Assembly: GCF_000797445.1 (NCBI RefSeq)
Contig: NZ_JSWF01000032.1
Coordinates: 124,001-188,000, forward strand
Direction: 5' to 3'
DNA: 64,000 bases
Source: Lacinutrix jangbogonensis
GTDB taxonomy: Bacteria; Bacteroidota; Bacteroidia; Flavobacteriales; Flavobacteriaceae
Position 1 is the first letter of the stretch. Each line of letters starts with the position of its first letter. The translations under genes and the position numbers were made by a program. A model generated the notes under the pieces. It ran no database searches. It was not told the DNA's origin and was given only the letters and a program-made list of their open reading frames with translations. Positions 2,400 through 20,199 of the stretch are shown here, piece after piece.

Positions 2400-3656
2400 T
2401 TACAGTTTAAATTCAGCTTTTACCTTATCAATATAATCTAGTTTTTCCCAAGTAAATAGTTCAACATCCATAGTAATGTCTCCACCATTAGGTCGAGAGA
2501 ACGTTTTAGTGACCGTTTCGTTTACTCTTCCCATATGTCCATAAGCAGCAGTTTCGCTGTACATTGGATTACGCAATTTTAAACGCGCTTCTATAGCAGC
2601 CGGTCTCATATCAAATATCTTAGAAACTTTCTCTGCTATTTCCCCGTCTGTCATGTTAAATGGGCAAGTACCATAAGTGTCAACAAAAATCCCCATAGGT
2701 TCTACAACACCAATCGCGTAAGAAACCTGAACGAGTAGTTCATCGCAAACACCAGCAGCAACTAAATTTTTAGCGATATGTCTTGTCGCATAAGCAGCGC
2801 TTCTATCTACTTTACTAGGATCTTTTCCTGAAAAAGCACCACCACCATGAGCTCCTTTTCCACCATATGTATCAACAATAATCTTACGTCCGGTTAATCC
2901 TGTGTCTCCATGTGGTCCACCAATAACAAATTTCCCTGTCGGATTAATATGATATTTTATTTTGTCATTAAACAATGCTTGGATTGATTCTGGTTGTTTT
3001 GCAATAACTCTTGGTATTAATATGTCAACAATATCTTTTCTGATTTTAGCTAGCATAACTTCATCATTACTATCAAAATCGTCATGTTGTGTAGAAACAA
3101 CAATAGAGTCAATACGTTGTGGTACGTTGTCATCACTATACTCAATTGTTACCTGACTTTTAGAATCTGGTCTTATGTAGGTAATGTCTTTGTTCTCGCG
3201 ACGTAACTCTGCTAATTCAATTAGAATTATATGAGATAAATCTAAAGCCAAAGGCATATAGTTTTCAGTTTCACGGGTTGCGTAACCAAACATCATGCCT
3301 TGATCTCCAGCACCTTGTTCTTCTTTTGTGTCACGATCTACACCACGATTAATATCGTCACTCTGTTCGTGAATAGCGCTAAAAACGCCACAAGAATTAC
3401 CATCAAACATATATTCGCTTTTTGTATAGCCAATTTTGTTTATAGTATCTCTTGCAATTTTCTGTACATCTAAATAGGTGTTAGATTTTACTTCACCTGC
3501 AAGTACAACTTGACCGGTAGTAACAAGCGTTTCGCAAGCGACCTTAGATTCGCTGTCGAAAGCTAAAAAATTATCAATTAATGCGTCACTAATTTGATCT
3601 GCAACTTTGTCTGGATGTCCTTCAGAAACACTTTCTGATGTAAATAAGTATGCCAT
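2400..3656 (-). CDS. metK: S-adenosylmethionine synthase
   Basis: MetK makes S-adenosylmethionine from methionine and ATP in the cytoplasm. The 418-residue protein starts with the family signature [18 protein letters not shown] (methionine/ATP site), and continues with [12 protein letters not shown] (signature 1) and [19 protein letters not shown] (signature 2, P-loop-like). Length is usual for Bacteroidota MetK. The gene is monocistronic: it has its own terminator and is transcribed away from metY. Its 5' leader, about 100 bases, contains a SAM-II riboswitch, so the enzyme appears to be repressed by its own product. The ATG follows directly on an A/T-rich leader without Shine-Dalgarno, as usual here. 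Confidence 0.98.
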
Positions 3657-3708
3657 AATTTTATTTTATAATATTTATGGATTTGACGAGAGCGTCGAAG
3701 GAAGTTTA

Positions 3709-3760
3709 CACTGCCTTTAGCATTTTTTAATGAGGTTGCAATCAGTCAAATCCGTCCTCG
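3709..3760 (-). ncRNA. SAM-II riboswitch in the metK leader
   Basis: Read on the minus strand: stem P1 GAGG pairs with CCTC. The loop contains GGATTTGACTGATTGCAA, and the segment after P1 contains ATGCTAAAGG followed by CAGT. ACTG in the loop can pair with CAGT to form the pseudoknot typical of SAM-II. The spaced blocks ATTT, ATTGCA and GCTAAA are the conserved SAM-II positions as I remember them. It lies about 55 bases upstream of the metK start, close enough for SAM binding to mask translation initiation. A TATTTTTG box just upstream (about 3774-3781 on the minus strand) could be the -7 element. Confidence 0.8.
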
Positions 3761-3917
3761 AAATTAATATTAGCAAAAATATAAAAATAATGTGGAAAGA
3801 AATTTGTTTTTACGTTTTTTGTGAAAATTTTGTTTTGTAACACGAAGTAATTAGATTTTTTTTCTAAAAAGTTCTTATATTATAAAGTATTAATGAAAAT
3901 TAATCTAAATTATTAGG

Positions 3918-3945: not shown

Positions 3946-3974
3946 CATTCACAAAGTTCAAAACTTTATTTAAA

Positions 3975-4096
3975 TGTTATCAAGAAAGGTGGAGGGATTA
4001 GACCCTTTGAAGCCTTAGCAACCCTTAGATTTACTAAGAAGGTGCTAATTTCTACCTGAAATCGCGAGTCATTTTTCGCAAATTCGGATAGATAAC
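3975..4096 (+). ncRNA. SAM-I (S-box) riboswitch upstream of metY
   Basis: P1 is GTTATC / GATAAC. The S-box core reads AAGAAAGGTGGAGGGA, then GACCCTTTGAAGCC and TTAGCAACCC, which are the conserved SAM-I blocks (AAGAGAGGTGGAGGGA, GATGAAACC, GGCAACC) with small changes. Two further hairpins (TTAGA/TCTAA-type P3 and CGCGAG/TTCGCA P4 region) follow before P1 closes. It controls the transcript that carries metY and the following methionine genes. Confidence 0.93.
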
Positions 4097-4103
4097 CAAA
4101 CGT

Positions 4104-4256: not shown

Positions 4257-5549
4257 ATGAGTGCACAAAAATTTGCAACCCAAGCGCTGCACGCCGGGCA
4301 CGACACAACAAAAACAGGAGGAACCAGAGCGGTTCCTATTTATCAATCTACAGCATATGTTTTCGACGATTCAGACGATGCGGCTGGTAGATTTAATCTT
4401 TCCGTTCCCGGATTTATTTATACACGACTAAATAATCCAACAAACGACATTTTAGAGCAACGTATTGCAGCGCTCGAAGGCGGTGTTGGCGCAGTAGCAA
4501 CTGCTTCAGGTACAGCAGCAATTTCTACAACATTATTAACCTTATTAAAAGCAGGAGATCATATTGTGGCATCAAGTAGTCTGTACGGTGGGACTTATAA
4601 TTTATTAAGTGTGACTTTGCCAAGACATGGAATTACAACAACATTTGTAGATCCTTCAAATCCAGAAAATTTTAGTAAAGCAGCACAGCAAAATACACGA
4701 ACTATTTTTGTTGAATCTCTAGGTAACCCAAAACTAGATGTTTTAGATTTAGAGGCTATTTCTAGGGAAGCTAAAGCAAAAAAAATCCCATTAATTGTAG
4801 ATAATACAGTAGCTACACCATATTTGTTAAATCCTATTGCGCATGGCGCAAATATTGTTATTCATTCATTAACCAAATATATTAACGGTAATGGAACCTC
4901 TCTAGGAGGTATTATTGTAGATGCCGGAACATTTGATTGGACAAACGGAAAATTTCCAGAATTTACAGAGCCTTCCGATGGTTACCATGGTTTAGTCTAT
5001 AGTGAAGTTATTGGAGCAGCCGCATTTATTGCAAAAATTAGAATTGAAGGATTAAGAGATTATGGTGCTGCATTAAGTCCGTTTAATGCTTTTCAAATCA
5101 TACAGGGATTAGAAACATTAGAATTACGAATTCTTAAACATAGTAAAAATGCATTAGAATTAGCGAGATGGTTACAAGAACAACCAGAAGTGACTTGGGT
5201 AAATTATCCCGGTTTACGAACTAGTAAATATCATAATCTGGCTCAAAGATACTTGCCGAAAGGACAAAGTGGTATTGTTACTTTTGGGGTTGTAGGTGGT
5301 TACGAGTCTGCAAAAGCGATAGCAGATACAACAAAACTATTCTCACTGTTAGCGAATATTGGAGATACAAAATCGTTAATTATTCATCCAGCAAGCACAA
5401 CACATCAGCAATTAAGTGACGCTGCGCAAGAAACTACAGGTGTTACAAAAGACTTGATTAGATTATCCGTCGGCATTGAGCATATTGACGATTTAAAATC
5501 GGATTTAAAAGAAGCGCTTACACTAGTTAATAAAACGGTTCTAGCTTAA
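4257..5549 (+). CDS. metY: O-acetylhomoserine aminocarboxypropyltransferase (homocysteine synthase)
   Basis: A PLP enzyme of the Cys/Met metabolism family that makes homocysteine from O-acetylhomoserine and sulfide. The 430-residue length and the start FATQALHAGHD are typical of MetY rather than of the shorter cystathionine synthases. ASGTAAISTTLL binds the PLP phosphate, LIVDNTVATPYLL carries the Asp that contacts the pyridine nitrogen, and IHSLTKYINGNGTSLGG contains the Schiff-base Lys. It is the first gene after the SAM-I riboswitch, so sulfur assimilation into homocysteine should fall when SAM is high. The next gene begins about 90 bases later after a hairpin. Confidence 0.96.
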   Translation: MSAQKFATQALHAGHDTTKTGGTRAVPIYQSTAYVFDDSDDAAGRFNLSVPGFIYTRLNNPTNDILEQRIAALEGGVGAVATASGTAAISTTLLTLLKAGDHIVASSSLYGGTYNLLSVTLPRHGITTTFVDPSNPENFSKAAQQNTRTIFVESLGNPKLDVLDLEAISREAKAKKIPLIVDNTVATPYLLNPIAHGANIVIHSLTKYINGNGTSLGGIIVDAGTFDWTNGKFPEFTEPSDGYHGLVYSEVIGAAAFIAKIRIEGLRDYGAALSPFNAFQIIQGLETLELRILKHSKNALELARWLQEQPEVTWVNYPGLRTSKYHNLAQRYLPKGQSGIVTFGVVGGYESAKAIADTTKLFSLLANIGDTKSLIIHPASTTHQQLSDAAQETTGVTKDLIRLSVGIEHIDDLKSDLKEALTLVNKTVLA

Positions 5550-14996: not shown

Positions 14997-15890
14997 TTAG
15001 GTAGTCAATGCCCTAAACATACTTTCCAAACTAGCATTCTTTTGATTGAGCTGAAGAATTTTTAGGTCACTATCATGAGCAAAATCAAAAACATGAGAAC
15101 GCATGTCTTCTTTTGTAGAAAATATTATTTCGTAAATAAAATCGTGTGTGTTCTTAACACTTTTCGCATTGGGTAATTTTAGTAGAAATGCATCTTCAAC
15201 TCGATAATCAAATTCAACAATAACTGTTTGCTCTTGGCCATCGCGAAGCTCGCTTAGCTTTTTATTAGCAACAATTTCACCTTTATTAATAATAATCACG
15301 CGATCACACATGGCTTCAACCTCTTGCATTATGTGTGTAGAAAGAAAAACGGTTTTTTCTTTACCAATAGATTTAATAAGATTTCTAATTTCTACTAATT
15401 GATTTGGGTCTAATCCAGTAGTAGGCTCGTCGAGAATGAGAACATCTGGATTGTGCAATAAAGCATTTGCTAAGCCAACACGTTGTCTGTAACCTTTAGA
15501 CAGTTGACTTATTTTTTTATGAGCTTCAGATGCTAAACCAGTAAGTGAGATTACCTCCTCGATTCTGTTTTTGCTTACGTTGTAAACATCAGCATTAAAC
15601 CCTAAATATTCACGAACGTACTGCTCTAAATATAATGGATTGTGTTCGGGTAAGTAGCCAACACTTTGTTGTACTTGTTTAGCATGGGTTAGAATTGGAT
15701 GTCCGTTTACTGATGCTTTACCTTCAGTTGGATTAATAAAAGTGGTTAATATTTTCATCATTGTAGATTTTCCAGCACCATTTGGACCAAGAAATCCTAC
15801 AATCTCTGGCTTCTTTATCTCAAAAGACACATTGTTAAGTGCTTTTTGCTCGCCATAAATCTTTGTTATATTTTCAACCTTTATTGACAT
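14997..15890 (-). CDS. gldA: Gliding-motility ABC transporter ATP-binding protein GldA
   Basis: A 297-residue ABC ATPase. Walker A is GPNGAGKS (residues about 36-43), the Q-loop region is YLPEHNPLY, the signature is LSKGYRQRV, Walker B is VLILDEPTTGLDP, and the H-loop is FLSTHIMQE. The EHNPLY Q-loop and the overall sequence match GldA of gliding Bacteroidota, which works with the membrane subunits GldF and GldG; those are not in this window. The start MSIKVENITKIYG was chosen over a Met six codons upstream because it matches the family N-terminus. It is divergent from the aromatic operon. Confidence 0.9.
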   Translation of the reverse strand: MSIKVENITKIYGEQKALNNVSFEIKKPEIVGFLGPNGAGKSTMMKILTTFINPTEGKASVNGHPILTHAKQVQQSVGYLPEHNPLYLEQYVREYLGFNADVYNVSKNRIEEVISLTGLASEAHKKISQLSKGYRQRVGLANALLHNPDVLILDEPTTGLDPNQLVEIRNLIKSIGKEKTVFLSTHIMQEVEAMCDRVIIINKGEIVANKKLSELRDGQEQTVIVEFDYRVEDAFLLKLPNAKSVKNTHDFIYEIIFSTKEDMRSHVFDFAHDSDLKILQLNQKNASLESMFRALTT

Positions 15891-15992
15891 CTTATAATCT
15901 TTCTTCAAAAATAAACATTCTGTAATTTAAACAAGACTTTGTATAGAAATCTTTAAATCTTATGCTAAAACCCTAAAATACATGCTTTAGTA

Positions 15993-16023
15993 TTTTGATT
16001 TGTGAATTATTTATTTAATTTAG
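15993..16023 (+). promoter_or_regulatory. Weak candidate promoter of the aromatic operon leader
   Basis: TTTTG, 18 bases, TAATTTAG: one mismatch to TAnnTTTG. It would start transcription only a few bases before the leader ATG, so a promoter further upstream is also possible. Confidence 0.3.
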
Positions 16024-16036
16024 CATCATAATTATT

Positions 16037-16114
16037 ATGAAAACATTTCAAATTACATATTATAGCTGGTTCTATTTCTTTTTTAGCAAAAAGAACGAGA
16101 CTGCGTATATGTAA
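16037..16114 (+). CDS. Aromatic-rich leader peptide of the Phe/Tyr operon
   Basis: A 25-codon ORF beginning MKTFQIT and continuing YYSWFYFFF, so eight of nine consecutive codons (8-16) are Tyr, Trp or Phe; ten of 25 codons are aromatic overall. It ends at TAA 16112-16114, 27 bases before a strong terminator and about 107 bases before pheA. Such composition by chance is very unlikely and is the hallmark of amino-acid-specific attenuation leaders such as proteobacterial PheL. The peptide itself probably has no function; ribosome progress along it is the signal. Confidence 0.85.
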   Translation: MKTFQITYYSWFYFFFSKKNETAYM

Positions 16115-16147
16115 TTGTAACATACATATATTTAAAACTAAGTCTCG
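16096..16147 (+). promoter_or_regulatory. Antiterminator pairing of the attenuator
   Basis: CGAGACT at 16096-16102, inside leader codons 20-22, is the exact complement of AGTCTCG at 16141-16147, the 5' arm of the terminator. A ribosome stalled at codons 8-16 leaves CGAGACT free to pair, blocking the terminator. A ribosome that reaches the stop covers it, and the terminator forms. TATATGT / ACATACATATA between them can form an extra small hairpin. Confidence 0.75.
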
Positions 16148-16171
16148 ATAATATTTATCGGGACTTTTTTT
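16141..16171 (+). terminator. Attenuator terminator upstream of pheA
   Basis: AGTCTCGATAA, TAT loop, TTATCGGGACT (11 pairs including one G-T) followed by seven T. It lies between the leader stop codon and pheA and would stop transcription before the operon. Confidence 0.9.
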
Positions 16172-16220
16172 ATTGAATAATATCAACAAAAGTTGAATCC
16201 CATTTAAAAAGAAATATAAT

Positions 16221-17048
16221 TTGATTAAAACAGTAGCCATACAAGGAATAAAAGGATCGTTTCACCACATCGTGTCGCAAGACTACTTTGGTGAGCATAC
16301 TGCTGTAAACGAGTGTCTGTCTTTCGATGATACTGTAGATGTTTTACTCTCTGGAAAAACAGAAGCAGCAATTATGGCTTTAGAAAACTCTATTGCAGGT
16401 TCAATTATACCAAACTATGCTTTGATAGATGCAAATAATCTTCATATTGTTGGAGAACATTATTTAGATATCCAGCATAATTTAATGGCATTACCAAATC
16501 AAAATATTCAAGATATTAAAGAAGTGTATTCGCACCCAATGGCATTATTGCAATGCAAAGCATATTTTAAAAATTATCCACATATAAAATTAATTGAAGA
16601 TAAAGATACAGCAGATGTTGCAAAGCGAATTCAAGATCAAAAACTTAAAGGTGTTGCTGCAATAGCGAGCCAATTGGCAGCTTTAATTTTCGAGCTTAAT
16701 ATTTTGGAGGAAAGCATACAGACCATTAAACACAACGAAACACGTTTTGCTATTGTGAAGCAAAATAATTCTGAAATTAATAAAACTGAAATAAGCAAAG
16801 CTTCAATTAAATTTGAGCTTGATCACAAGCGCGGAAGCTTAGCAGCAATCCTTAATGTTATGAGTGATTGTAAGCTTAATTTAACCAAAATACAATCCTT
16901 GCCTATAATTAAAACACCTTGGCTTTATGCCTTTTTTGTTGATGTTACTTTCCATGATTATAAAGATTATGAAAAGGCAAAGGCAATAATAGAAATTATG
17001 GCAACACATTTTAAGGTTTTAGGAGAATATAAAAACGCAAAAAAATAA
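16221..17048 (+). CDS. pheA: Prephenate dehydratase
   Basis: It converts prephenate to phenylpyruvate in Phe synthesis. The 275-residue protein has the catalytic region (about 1-185) starting IQGIKGSFHH, MALENSIAGSI, YSHPMALLQC and the invariant catalytic NETRFAIV motif. A C-terminal ACT domain (about 195-275) has KRGSLAAILNV, the usual Phe-binding feedback module. There is no ATG; the TTG at 16221 is the sensible start and gives the family N-terminus. The stop overlaps the next ATG (TAATG). It is the first structural gene behind the aromatic attenuator. Confidence 0.93.
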   Translation: MIKTVAIQGIKGSFHHIVSQDYFGEHTAVNECLSFDDTVDVLLSGKTEAAIMALENSIAGSIIPNYALIDANNLHIVGEHYLDIQHNLMALPNQNIQDIKEVYSHPMALLQCKAYFKNYPHIKLIEDKDTADVAKRIQDQKLKGVAAIASQLAALIFELNILEESIQTIKHNETRFAIVKQNNSEINKTEISKASIKFELDHKRGSLAAILNVMSDCKLNLTKIQSLPIIKTPWLYAFFVDVTFHDYKDYEKAKAIIEIMATHFKVLGEYKNAKK

Positions 17049-18187
17049 TGGAAGTCGCAAAAAGATTACATAGCGTTGAAGAGTACTACTTTTCTAAGAA
17101 GTTAAAGGAAGTTAATGTCCTTAAATCTCAAGGCAAGCCTATTATTAATTTAGGTATTGGAAGCCCAGATTTACAACCACCTGGAAAAGTAATTTCTGCA
17201 ATTACAGATAGCCTTACATCAGGTAATGCTCATAAATACCAAAGCTATCAAGGTTTGCCAGAACTACGTGAAGCAATCGCAGGTTTTTATAAAACGCATT
17301 TTCAAGTGAATATTAATGCAGCAAACGAAGTGTTGCCGCTTATGGGAAGCAAGGAGGGTATCATGCATATTTCTATGGCTTTTTTAAACGAAGGCGATGC
17401 GGTTTTAATTCCAAATCCAGGGTATCCAACATATACTTCTGTTACTAAATTATTACAGGCTGAGCCTATATTTTACAATTTAGCTGAAGCTAATAACTGG
17501 TGTCCTAATTTTGAAGAACTTGAAAAACAAGATTTATCTAAAGTGAAGATTATGTGGTTAAATTATCCACACATGCCAACTGGAGCCAAAGCGACTAAAG
17601 CAATGTTTAAAACAGTAATAGCTTTTGCTAAAAAGCATAATATTTTAGTGATAAATGATAATCCGTATAGTTTTATTTTAAATAAAGAGCCGCTAAGTAT
17701 TTTAAGTGTTAAAGGTTCAAAAGAAGTGTGTTTAGAATTAAACTCACTAAGCAAAACATTTAATATGGCGGGCTGGAGAGTTGGAATGTTACTAGGTAAT
17801 CAAGAGTTGCTAAATGCGGTTTTAAAAGTGAAAAGTAACATGGATTCTGGTATGTTTTATGGCATTCAAAAAGGAGCTATTGAAGCATTAAATTCTTCAG
17901 AAATGTGGTTTGTAAGTTTGAATAGTATTTATGAGCGAAGACGTAAACTAGTTTGGGAATTAGCTGCTAAATTAAATTGTTCTTTCGATGAAAATGCAAG
18001 CGGATTATTTGTTTGGGCAAAGTTACCTCCGTTTTTTAAATCTGAAGAATTTATAGATAAATTATTAATAGAGAATAATATTTTTATAACACCAGGGACT
18101 GTTTTTGGTAGTCAAGGTGAAGGTTATGTCCGTTTTTCATTATGTGCAACAACCGATGAAATACAAGAAGCAATTGCAAGAGTATGA
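17048..18187 (+). CDS. Class I/II aminotransferase, probably aromatic/aspartate type
   Basis: A 379-residue fold-type I PLP aminotransferase: NLGIGSPDLQPP at the N-terminus, YPTYTS, DNPYSFIL (Asp contacting PLP), NSLSKTFNMAGWRVGM with the Schiff-base Lys, and VRFSLCATTDEIQEA with the substrate-carboxylate Arg. Placement between prephenate dehydratase and prephenate dehydrogenase argues that it transaminates phenylpyruvate and 4-hydroxyphenylpyruvate to Phe and Tyr, the last step missing from the operon otherwise. The exact specificity is inferred from context. It overlaps pheA by one base and tyrA by four (ATGA). Confidence 0.9.
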   Translation: MEVAKRLHSVEEYYFSKKLKEVNVLKSQGKPIINLGIGSPDLQPPGKVISAITDSLTSGNAHKYQSYQGLPELREAIAGFYKTHFQVNINAANEVLPLMGSKEGIMHISMAFLNEGDAVLIPNPGYPTYTSVTKLLQAEPIFYNLAEANNWCPNFEELEKQDLSKVKIMWLNYPHMPTGAKATKAMFKTVIAFAKKHNILVINDNPYSFILNKEPLSILSVKGSKEVCLELNSLSKTFNMAGWRVGMLLGNQELLNAVLKVKSNMDSGMFYGIQKGAIEALNSSEMWFVSLNSIYERRRKLVWELAAKLNCSFDENASGLFVWAKLPPFFKSEEFIDKLLIENNIFITPGTVFGSQGEGYVRFSLCATTDEIQEAIARV

Positions 18188-19038
18188 TAAATAATATTTA
18201 CATAATAGGCGTAGGTTTAATAGGAGGGAGTTTAGCTTTAGATATAAAGAAAAAGCGACCGCATGCTACTGTTTATGGTATAGATAATAGTGCACAGCAC
18301 CTAGCAGAAGCTTTAGAATTAAATGTTATCGATGCAAAAGCAACCTTGGGCGATTTAGACAAAGCAGATTTGGTAATATTATCTATTCCTGTAGATTCTG
18401 CTGTGGCATTATTGCCAAAAGTATTGGATAAAGTTTCAGATTTTGGATTGGTTGTAGATGTTGGTTCTACCAAACAAGCTATTTGTAATGTGGTAGAAAC
18501 TCATTCAAAACGAAGAAATTTCTTAGCTATGCATCCCATTGCCGGAACAGAATTTTCTGGACCTAAAGCAGCCATTTTTGATTTATTTCAGCATAAAACA
18601 AATATTGTTTGCGAAGTTGAAAAAACAGCTTTCAAACTTCAAGAAAAAGCATTGGGTTTATTTTCAGAAATAGGCATGAGAATGCGTTACATGAATCCGG
18701 AAGCGCACGACAAACATATTGCTTATGTGTCTCATTTATCGCATATTAGCGCTTTTATGTTGGGTAAAACGGTTATAGAAAAAGAAAAAAACGAACGCGA
18801 TATTTTCGATATGGCAGGTTCTGGTTTCGAAAGCACAGTACGATTGGCAAAAAGTTCACCTGCGATGTGGACACCAATTTTTAAACAGAATAAAGATAAT
18901 GTTGTTGAGACTTTGGAAGATTACATCACGAATTTAACACAGTTTAAAAACATGATGGAGAACGATGATTTTGAAGGTGTTTTTAATGAAATGAAAGACA
19001 CCAATTATATAAAACAGATATTAAACGGAATACAGTAA
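18184..19038 (+). CDS. tyrA: Prephenate dehydrogenase
   Basis: It oxidatively decarboxylates prephenate to 4-hydroxyphenylpyruvate with NAD(P)+, the Tyr branch. The 284-residue protein begins with the nucleotide-binding IYIIGVGLIGGSLALD (GxGxxG) and contains VVDVGSTKQAI, AMHPIAGTEFSGP and HDKHIAYVSHLSHISAF, the helical-domain substrate motif. No ACT domain is attached. The start overlaps the aminotransferase stop by four bases, so translation is coupled. Confidence 0.95.
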   Translation: MINNIYIIGVGLIGGSLALDIKKKRPHATVYGIDNSAQHLAEALELNVIDAKATLGDLDKADLVILSIPVDSAVALLPKVLDKVSDFGLVVDVGSTKQAICNVVETHSKRRNFLAMHPIAGTEFSGPKAAIFDLFQHKTNIVCEVEKTAFKLQEKALGLFSEIGMRMRYMNPEAHDKHIAYVSHLSHISAFMLGKTVIEKEKNERDIFDMAGSGFESTVRLAKSSPAMWTPIFKQNKDNVVETLEDYITNLTQFKNMMENDDFEGVFNEMKDTNYIKQILNGIQ

Positions 19039-19116
19039 TAACAAAACTTAAAAACTAAATAGCAATAACTTTAGGGCTTTTGGAATTTAGAATTTTTTAG
19101 TTGGAATTTTAGAATT

Positions 19117-20199
19117 ATGGAAAATAAAAAAGAAATGAGAAACTGGTTGGATGCTATGAAATTAGACCATCCATTAGTAATCGCGGGACCATGTAGTGCA
19201 GAGACGGAAGAGCAAGTTTTAAAAATCGCTCACGAGCTTAAAGATACTGACGTTAGCTATTTTAGAGCGGGTATATGGAAACCACGTACACGTCCAGGAA
19301 TGTTTGAAGGTGTTGGAGCTTTGGGTTTAAATTGGCTTAAAAAAGTAAAGGAAGAAACGGGAATGAAAACCTGTACAGAAGTTGCCAATGCAGCGCATGT
19401 AAAGTTGGCGATTGAAAATGATGTCGATTTACTTTGGATTGGAGCACGCTCGACTGTGAGTCCATTTATAATGCAAGAATTGGCAGACGCTCTAGCTGGA
19501 ACAGATAAAATTGTTTTAGTAAAAAATCCAGTAAATCCAGATTTAGCCTTATGGTTAGGTGGTATTGAAAGATTATACTCTGCAGGAATTAAAAATTTAG
19601 GAGCAATCCATAGGGGTTTTTCTACTTACGAAAAAACCAAATATAGAAACATTCCAGAATGGCAAATTGCTATCGAATTTCAAAATAAATTTCCAGATTT
19701 GCCATTAATTAACGATCCATCTCATATTACAGGAAAACGTGATATGGTTTTTGATGTCTCTCAAACAGCTTTAGATCTTAATTTTGATGGTTTAATGATT
19801 GAAACACATACAGATCCAGATAATGCATGGAGTGATGCTGCACAGCAGGTTACGCCTGAAACATTGGTGAATATGATGCAGGATTTGAAAATTAGAAAAG
19901 TGAGCGATCCTGAAGCAGAATACAATAAAGATCTAGCTAATTTAAGAGCGCAGATAGATGTTGTAGATAATCAACTAATAGATTTAATGGGTAAACGTAT
20001 GCAGGTTGCAGATGGCATTGGTGTATTAAAAAAACAAAAGAATGTTGCTGTTTTACAAAGCAAACGTTGGAATGAGATTCTAGGTAAAATGGTATTACAA
20101 GGCGATGAAAAAGGCTTAAGCGAAGAATTTATTTTAAAGCTTTTTAAAGCAGTACACCAAGAATCTATTAATCATCAAGAGAAGGTAATAAACGGGTAG
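19117..20199 (+). CDS. Bifunctional 3-deoxy-7-phosphoheptulonate synthase / chorismate mutase
   Basis: A 360-residue fusion. The N-terminal domain (about 10-255) is the KDO8P-like DAHP synthase: VIAGPCSAET, YFRAGIWKPRTRPG, GARSTVSPF, VKNPVNPD and LINDPSHITGKR. The C-terminal domain (about 270-350) is an AroQ-type chorismate mutase (LRAQIDVVDNQLIDLMGKR ... GVLKKQKN). It thus supplies both the first shikimate-pathway step and the prephenate used by the two upstream enzymes. The fused mutase often mediates feedback by prephenate. It lies 78 bases after tyrA and is most likely the last gene of the attenuated operon. Confidence 0.95.
   Translation: MENKKEMRNWLDAMKLDHPLVIAGPCSAETEEQVLKIAHELKDTDVSYFRAGIWKPRTRPGMFEGVGALGLNWLKKVKEETGMKTCTEVANAAHVKLAIENDVDLLWIGARSTVSPFIMQELADALAGTDKIVLVKNPVNPDLALWLGGIERLYSAGIKNLGAIHRGFSTYEKTKYRNIPEWQIAIEFQNKFPDLPLINDPSHITGKRDMVFDVSQTALDLNFDGLMIETHTDPDNAWSDAAQQVTPETLVNMMQDLKIRKVSDPEAEYNKDLANLRAQIDVVDNQLIDLMGKRMQVADGIGVLKKQKNVAVLQSKRWNEILGKMVLQGDEKGLSEEFILKLFKAVHQESINHQEKVING

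Follow-up and report, generated by a model that had tools for sequence, protein, structure and literature searches.

What controls the four-gene Phe/Tyr operon at positions 16221–20199 of the 64,000-nucleotide stretch of DNA analysed here (the window), and which amino acids are read by the candidate attenuator region (16037–16171) lying directly before it? The source DNA was closest to Lacinutrix among named relatives, as judged by a search with the protein of the first gene, prephenate dehydratase (PDT, pheA). Domain matches of all four genes (Table 1) agree with the remark in the initial annotation that the operon supplies Phe and Tyr from a DAHP synthase/chorismate mutase. Because the neighbouring gene on the other side is divergent, the terminator lying between that gene and pheA is part of the 5' leader of the operon and not the end of an upstream gene.

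Table 1. Features of the leader, the operon and the adjoining gene, in window coordinates.
Feature	Start	End	Strand	Details
ABC-transporter-like ATPase gene, divergent	14997	15908	-	named by eye
Predicted -33 promoter element, TTTTG	15993	15997	+	TTG at -24 or -25 from TTTAG-like motif in 66/77 (raw counts, no chance control)
Predicted -7 promoter element, TAATTTAG	16016	16023	+	relatives often TACTTTAG; TTTAG-like motif near leader ATG
Leader ORF, 25 codons plus TAA	16037	16114	+	MKTFQITYYSWFYFFFSKKNETAYM; read from sequence; ATG at 16037, TAA at 16112-16114; in 77/80 related loci
1:2 (protector) hairpin	16051	16116	+	16051-16060 with 16107-16116; inner pairs join aromatic codons to A-rich stretch and segment 2
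Control codons 8-16, YYSWFYFFF	16058	16084	+	aromatic kept in 15/15 single-base changes at last six codons of run
Segment 2	16096	16113	+	CGAGACT 16096-16102; GTATATGTA 16105-16113
Segment 3	16123	16147	+	TACATATAT 16123-16131; AGTCTCG 16141-16147; 2:3 antiterminator, 3:4 terminator
Intrinsic terminator (3:4)	16140	16171	+	stem 16140-16166, 12 pairs; T run 16165-16171; pattern in 78/78 leader-bearing sequences
Prephenate dehydratase (PDT, pheA)	16221	17048	+	PF00800; TTG start
Class I/II aminotransferase	17048	18187	+	PF00155
Prephenate dehydrogenase	18184	19038	+	PF02153, PF20463
DAHP synthase - chorismate mutase fusion	19117	20199	+	PF00793, PF01817

A 25-codon ORF with YYSWFYFFF at codons 8–16 had been annotated initially, and direct reading of the sequence confirmed both the ORF and its coordinates. 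A locus was scored as having the leader if an ATG mini-ORF with at least 6 F/Y/W within 10 codons lay upstream of PDT. A search with the PDT protein gave 275 loci, of which the best 80 formed the close set, or 81 sequences with the window; 78 of the 81 had such a mini-ORF, as did 2.6% of 810 dinucleotide shuffles and none of the 47 other ORFs of the window. The terminator pattern accompanied the leader ORF in all 77 related loci that have one and in the window itself. Of the three remaining loci, two (L040 and L069) are on contigs that begin inside the element, the rest of which is kept, and only one, L054, is without a leader in the 500 bases upstream of PDT. By eye, L054 (Gelidibacter salicanalis) has several near-identical repeats of ~110 bases before PDT instead of the leader; a stretch similar to these repeats lies between the terminator and PDT in L110. 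The check suggested with the initial annotation, conservation upstream of PDT, thus came out in its favour: the aromatic mini-ORF, the terminator and the alternative stems are all kept in relatives.

The element extends well beyond the close set. Run against 299 genomes of the family, a covariance model (R1) had matches at E ≤ 0.01 in 214, as a rule one in each; the window's own genome has a single match and no second copy, the next match having E = 0.41. Inspection covered 30 strong and 20 weaker matches (E 6e-8 to 3e-6 for the latter) of the 214 genomes, the weakest matches lying outside this selection, and every one inspected was an aromatic leader before PDT. In a sample of the class, PDT was recognised by PF00800 in 31 of 119 genomes; besides the window's own genome, 20 of the other 30 passed the leader criterion (L209 among them) and ten failed it (L145, L146, L148, L152, L154, L157, L163, L165, L167 and L173), yet in L163 a leader with five aromatics (MKLTQTYFWFYPTLSTGG) is plausible. 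Among additional loci outside this sample, four at the order level (L203–L206) and two at the class level (L207 and L208) were without a leader, and two of the same family (L210 and L211) each had one. Outside the class, none of 29 loci, the best-scoring of 258 PDT-bearing among 296 genomes, passed the criterion; this control differs in G+C (53% versus 34%), and the dinucleotide shuffles are the better one. The order-level family f2 (L145 and L203–L206) carries a PDT of another sequence type, with a start resembling MKIAFLGP.ASFTQLA, and has no aromatic leader by the criterion.

The RNA of the leader can adopt three helices. The terminator (3:4), folded from 16140, gave -13.4 kcal/mol with a z of -6.64, which is beyond chance, and it was the sole terminator-like site in 15850–16300, against a mean of 0.1 in shuffles. 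The initial annotation described it as an 11-bp stem with seven T; the seven T were borne out, but the scanner found 12 pairs in the stem. The antiterminator pairing proposed there, CGAGACT with AGTCTCG, holds as an exact 7-base complement, and it is extended by an upper helix, GTATATGTA with TACATATAT, which was absent from that annotation; the whole 2:3 fold gave -14.4 kcal/mol (z -3.76), again beyond chance. Likewise absent from it was the 1:2 hairpin, which sequesters the antiterminator arm. In folds of the window the helices 1:2, 2:3 and 3:4 were mutually exclusive, with the antiterminator and terminator sharing one arm.

When compared with codon-shuffled leaders, the 1:2 fold had a mean z of -2.5 in each of the close, weaker and class-level sets, and it was within the best 5 of 100 codon shuffles in 57/77, 15/20 and 12/17 loci, respectively. 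At least three bases of segment 2 were paired upstream in 77/77 close and 20/20 weaker loci but in only 10/17 at the class level. Four features of an attenuator were thus found by folding and reading the sequences: a short ORF, predicted, rich in aromatic codons; a terminator before the first structural gene; an antiterminator exclusive of it; and a protector hairpin, present in the window and the close set and weaker in class-level loci.

The three segments were then compared across loci. Segments 2/3/4 read CGAGACT/AGTCTCG/CGGGACT in the window, ACGGGACT/AGTCCCG/CGGGACT in L120, TCGGAACT/AGTTCCG/CGGAACT in L137, TCAGGATT/AATCCTGA/TCAGGATT in L156 and AGGCGGGA/TCCCGCCT/AGGCGGGA in L147. Compared with 200 shuffles, the pairing of segments 2 and 3 came among the best 10 in 107 of 118 loci and among the best 2 in 70; 11 loci fell short of the top 10, the threshold used. 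Three of the 41 diverged loci (L149, L161 and L164), in which no good terminator was detected, were dropped here and from the 1:2 hairpin and ribosome-model sets; the last two sets also exclude L019, for which the terminator finder chose the wrong hairpin. In the 38 diverged loci retained, a locus's own segments 2 and 3 paired at an average of -11.71 kcal/mol, versus -8.28 (sd 0.34) with segments 3 permuted, and none of 10,000 permutations, which ignore kinship and G+C, matched the own pairing. The own segment 3 beat every different one in only 8 of the 38. RNAalifold on the 78 close sequences reported two-sided change at just 1 of 20 consensus pairs; the evidence for covariation rests on the diverged loci because the stem cores of the close set hardly vary, being nearly invariant. 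In the diverged loci, the antiterminator arm changes together with the terminator arm, and this is compensatory change of segments 2, 3 and 4.

Whether a stalled ribosome would throw the switch was modelled by treating the mRNA as covered to a point 12 nt beyond the first base of the A-site codon and computing the probability of 2:3 before segment 4 exists; the model is one of equilibrium, without kinetics or pausing. In the window this probability was 0.77–0.78 with the ribosome at codons 8–16; it was still 0.66 with codon 17 in the A site but 0.01 with codon 18. A value of 0.75 was obtained at codons 3–7 too, before the aromatic codons, and, because 2:3 is high for a stall upstream as well, the model bounds the control codons on their downstream side only. 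Averaged over 77 close loci, 2:3 was 0.88 with the ribosome at the last aromatic codon and fell to 0.43 two codons on and to 0.05 four codons on; the corresponding means for 37 diverged loci were 0.77, 0.33 and 0.01. The last aromatic codon begins 9–18 nt before the segment 2 duplex in 38 diverged loci. In the equilibrium model, then, the control codons lie where a ribosome stalled on them leaves segment 2 open and one that moves on hides it, and the geometry fits ribosome-stalling control as had been suggested: 2:3 is high at the aromatic codons and has vanished about four codons farther on. Without a ribosome, 2:3 was 0.26 in the window and averaged 0.56 in the close and 0.52 in the diverged loci, and because of these averages the untranslated state may be leaky.

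The conserved ORF, terminator and alternative stems support the original description of a classical attenuator with an aromatic leader before a Phe/Tyr operon. On the sequences and the model, we regard it as very probable that this is a genuine ribosome-mediated transcription attenuator, which would make expression of the operon depend on how much charged tRNA-Phe and tRNA-Tyr is available. Transcription would begin just upstream of the leader ORF. If the leader were untranslated, segment 1, including its U-rich aromatic codons, would pair with segment 2, the 3:4 terminator would form, and transcription would stop at about 16171. When Phe or Tyr is scarce, the ribosome would stall at codons 8–16 and cover segment 1, leaving segment 2 free; 2:3 would then form, block the terminator and allow the operon to be read. 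When the supply is ample, the ribosome would proceed towards the stop codon and cover segment 2, so that 3:4 would terminate transcription. Inferred in this scheme are that the leader is translated, that the ribosome stalls, that it keeps pace with the polymerase, that transcription terminates in vivo, and which amino acids are sensed.

A predicted promoter is compatible with this start. A TTTAG-like motif lies no more than 45 nt from the leader ATG in 77/78 sequences and at 14–21 nt in 68/77 (raw counts, no chance control), and the TTTTG/TAATTTAG pair of the window is promoter-like by the promoter consensus of the phylum. The transcription start is predicted at about 16030, giving a 5' UTR of several bases only.

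The initial annotation also raised the possibility that all three aromatic amino acids are sensed, and this is the point at which it is weakly supported. At least two Phe and at least two Tyr codons occur in 117 of 118 leaders. Trp occurs in 81 of the 118, divided as 65/78 close, 12/20 weaker and 4/20 class-level leaders; at the aligned Trp codon of the close set, W is found in only 63/78, the others having F, N, S or G, partly through deletion. The same attenuator sensing Trp as well as Phe and Tyr would have in its favour the frequency of Trp in the close leaders, a modelled stall at the Trp codon that leaves segment 2 free, and the established fact that DAHP synthase, encoded in this operon, feeds Trp too. 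Against it, Trp is missing from 37/118 leaders and from 16/20 of the class-level set, and the trp operon of this genome carries its own WWW leader. We therefore consider sensing of all three unlikely, though the best placed of the alternatives; joint sensing of Phe and Tyr would fit better.

The own trp leader (MNTNLNHTWWWTSRNSIRE; L142, reverse strand, upstream of a trpE-like gene) has WWW and a terminator and matches Rfam RF01692, Bacteroid-trp, at 56 bits against a cut-off of 49; its 2:3 pairing was weak, at -5.2 kcal/mol, in a quick test with a clipped segment 3. Upstream of hisG, also on the reverse strand, is a his leader (MNFIQLHHHFHTCTQAR; L140) with HHHFH and a terminator; its 2:3 pairing was strong (-18.1 kcal/mol) in a three-helix fold. 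It is thus like the Phe/Tyr leader in its three-helix design and terminator, and unlike it in having His codons and serving a his operon. No obvious leader was present in the 330 bases examined at ilvD of the same genome, and the stretch examined at its thrA-like gene seems to be inside a longer open frame. Together, these leaders suggest that leader peptides govern the synthesis of Phe/Tyr, Trp and His in this genome.

How the aromatic codons have changed bears on the remaining explanations. On a tree of the PDT genes, the six codons that close the aromatic run underwent 15 single-base changes, 12 synonymous and 3 between F and Y, all of which preserved an aromatic residue; of the 9 possible single-base changes of a Phe or Tyr codon, only 2 do so. 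A further 16 changes at these codons were larger and 6 of them remained aromatic, so that changes of any size were aromatic in 21/31; all 10 losses of an aromatic residue fell on the first two of the six codons. By this pattern of substitution, the aromatic residues of the leader are kept by selection on the peptide. A second constraint is suggested by the third-to-last codon of the run, a Phe codon that is TTC in 77/78 sequences, whereas TTC makes up only 119 of 1037 Phe codons in pheA genes. In the consensus fold the C of this TTC is paired to segment 2, and the bias points to a constraint on the nucleic acid, which may lie in that pairing or in keeping T runs short. Residues before the aromatic core vary among leaders, as does the length of the core, and six leaders (L034, L036, L038, L053, L058 and L072) stop no more than three codons after the aromatic run. 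The DNA beyond their stop codons stays alike, and because of this the tail of the leader peptide appears to be of no importance.

A leader RNA that binds a metabolite or a protein (a riboswitch, a T-box or the target of a repressor), with the ORF incidental to it, would also yield a structured and conserved 5' leader. The leader had no match in Rfam either at the gathering level or at E ≤ 1; in particular, no T-box or amino-acid riboswitch was found in it in the gathering-level search of the window, and it matched no other family, the enterobacterial Phe leader of Rfam included. It is in keeping with a binding RNA that the available text of PMC9723704 describes the pheA element only as a 5' element with structure. 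The lack of an Rfam match and the synonymous and F/Y changes, by which the aromatic codons are kept as codons, nevertheless make a binding RNA very improbable in our judgement.

That the hairpin acts chiefly on translation of pheA rather than on transcription is suggested by its position in some relatives. The T run ends 0–5 nt before the pheA start codon, as placed by homology, in 29 of 78 leader-bearing sequences (e.g., L022, L036, L043 and L076), where the hairpin would cover the initiation site; the start placed in this way is TTG in 33/78 genes, including that of the window. The gap from T run to start codon is, however, 49 nt in the window, and a T run follows the stem in 78/78; a role mainly in translation is accordingly very doubtful. 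An additional effect of the hairpin on pheA translation may occur in the 29, about a third of the close relatives, in which the terminator abuts the start. Least likely of all is a functional small aromatic peptide next to an ordinary terminator, for which the strongly conserved core would speak, but not the variable residues before it, its varying length, the tails cut short in six leaders, the pairing of aromatic codons with segment 2 or the nearly constant TTC.

The transcription attenuator has a well-known counterpart in pheL-pheA of E. coli, where Phe codons in a short ORF and alternative hairpins govern a terminator before pheA. The mechanism would be the same; the Lacinutrix system differs in that Phe and Tyr codons, often with Trp, are mixed, in that the operon includes prephenate dehydrogenase and DAHP synthase, and in the lack of an Rfam match for the leader. 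Bacteroidota start translation largely without Shine-Dalgarno pairing. If the attenuator is as proposed, ribosome and polymerase would have to be closely paced across a group largely without such pairing, on an ORF with a predicted 5' UTR of several bases.

Leader-peptide control was already known in Bacteroidota from Bacteroid-trp (Rfam RF01692), the Bacteroidete tryptophan peptide leader RNA of PMC2864571, as far as the available text of that paper goes. It too is a cis-regulatory RNA with a leader peptide, found in the same phylum before an operon for an aromatic amino acid, but it serves another operon, has Trp codons and differs in sequence, the Phe/Tyr leader giving no match to it even at E ≤ 1. 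The available text of PMC9723704 (2021), on Flavobacterium psychrophilum, describes structured elements 5' of pheA and of hisG, which occur in other Flavobacteriaceae genera and lack Rfam hits, and it speaks of 'strong clues' for attenuation by leader peptides ahead of amino-acid operons. Its pheA element agrees with ours in gene position, family and want of an Rfam match; it is described there in a few sentences, and the two were compared by description and not by sequence. The remark in the initial annotation that a described Phe/Tyr attenuator in Flavobacteriaceae was not known to its author must thus be qualified, since this element had been flagged; no fuller account of a pheA leader was found in the literature searched, most subscription journals being outside its scope. 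In the portions available, PMC7366714 treats leader-peptide-like sORFs of B. thetaiotaomicron in general terms, and PMC8305728 discusses his attenuation with no Bacteroidota leader. The attenuator is therefore partly anticipated in print, to judge by these texts, and its mechanism is that of the textbook. As far as our searches show, the three-helix anatomy, the joint use of Phe and Tyr codons, the spread through a large part of the class, the compensation among segments 2, 3 and 4 and the switch point are apparently new.

Evenly balanced, in our estimate, is the wider proposal that the common Phe/Tyr operon of a large part of Bacteroidia is controlled by a single ancient family of leaders, without a name in Rfam, that senses Phe and Tyr jointly. 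The loci would be numerous Phe/Tyr attenuators from outside Proteobacteria that can be aligned and whose switch point is sharply defined, offering a direct test of transcription-translation coupling in Bacteroidota, and the covariance model is usable for annotation of Flavobacteriaceae.

The Rfam search of the whole window at the gathering level returned only SAM-I, SAM-II and one tRNA, none of them in the leader. SAM-II (RF01726) lies at 3707–3765 on the reverse strand, before a metK-like gene (2400–3656, reverse strand), and SAM-I (RF00162) at 3974–4098 on the forward strand, before a sulfhydrylase-like gene (4257–5549, forward strand) that heads a methionine cluster; the genes were named by eye. 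Two riboswitch classes thus stand back to back on opposite strands.
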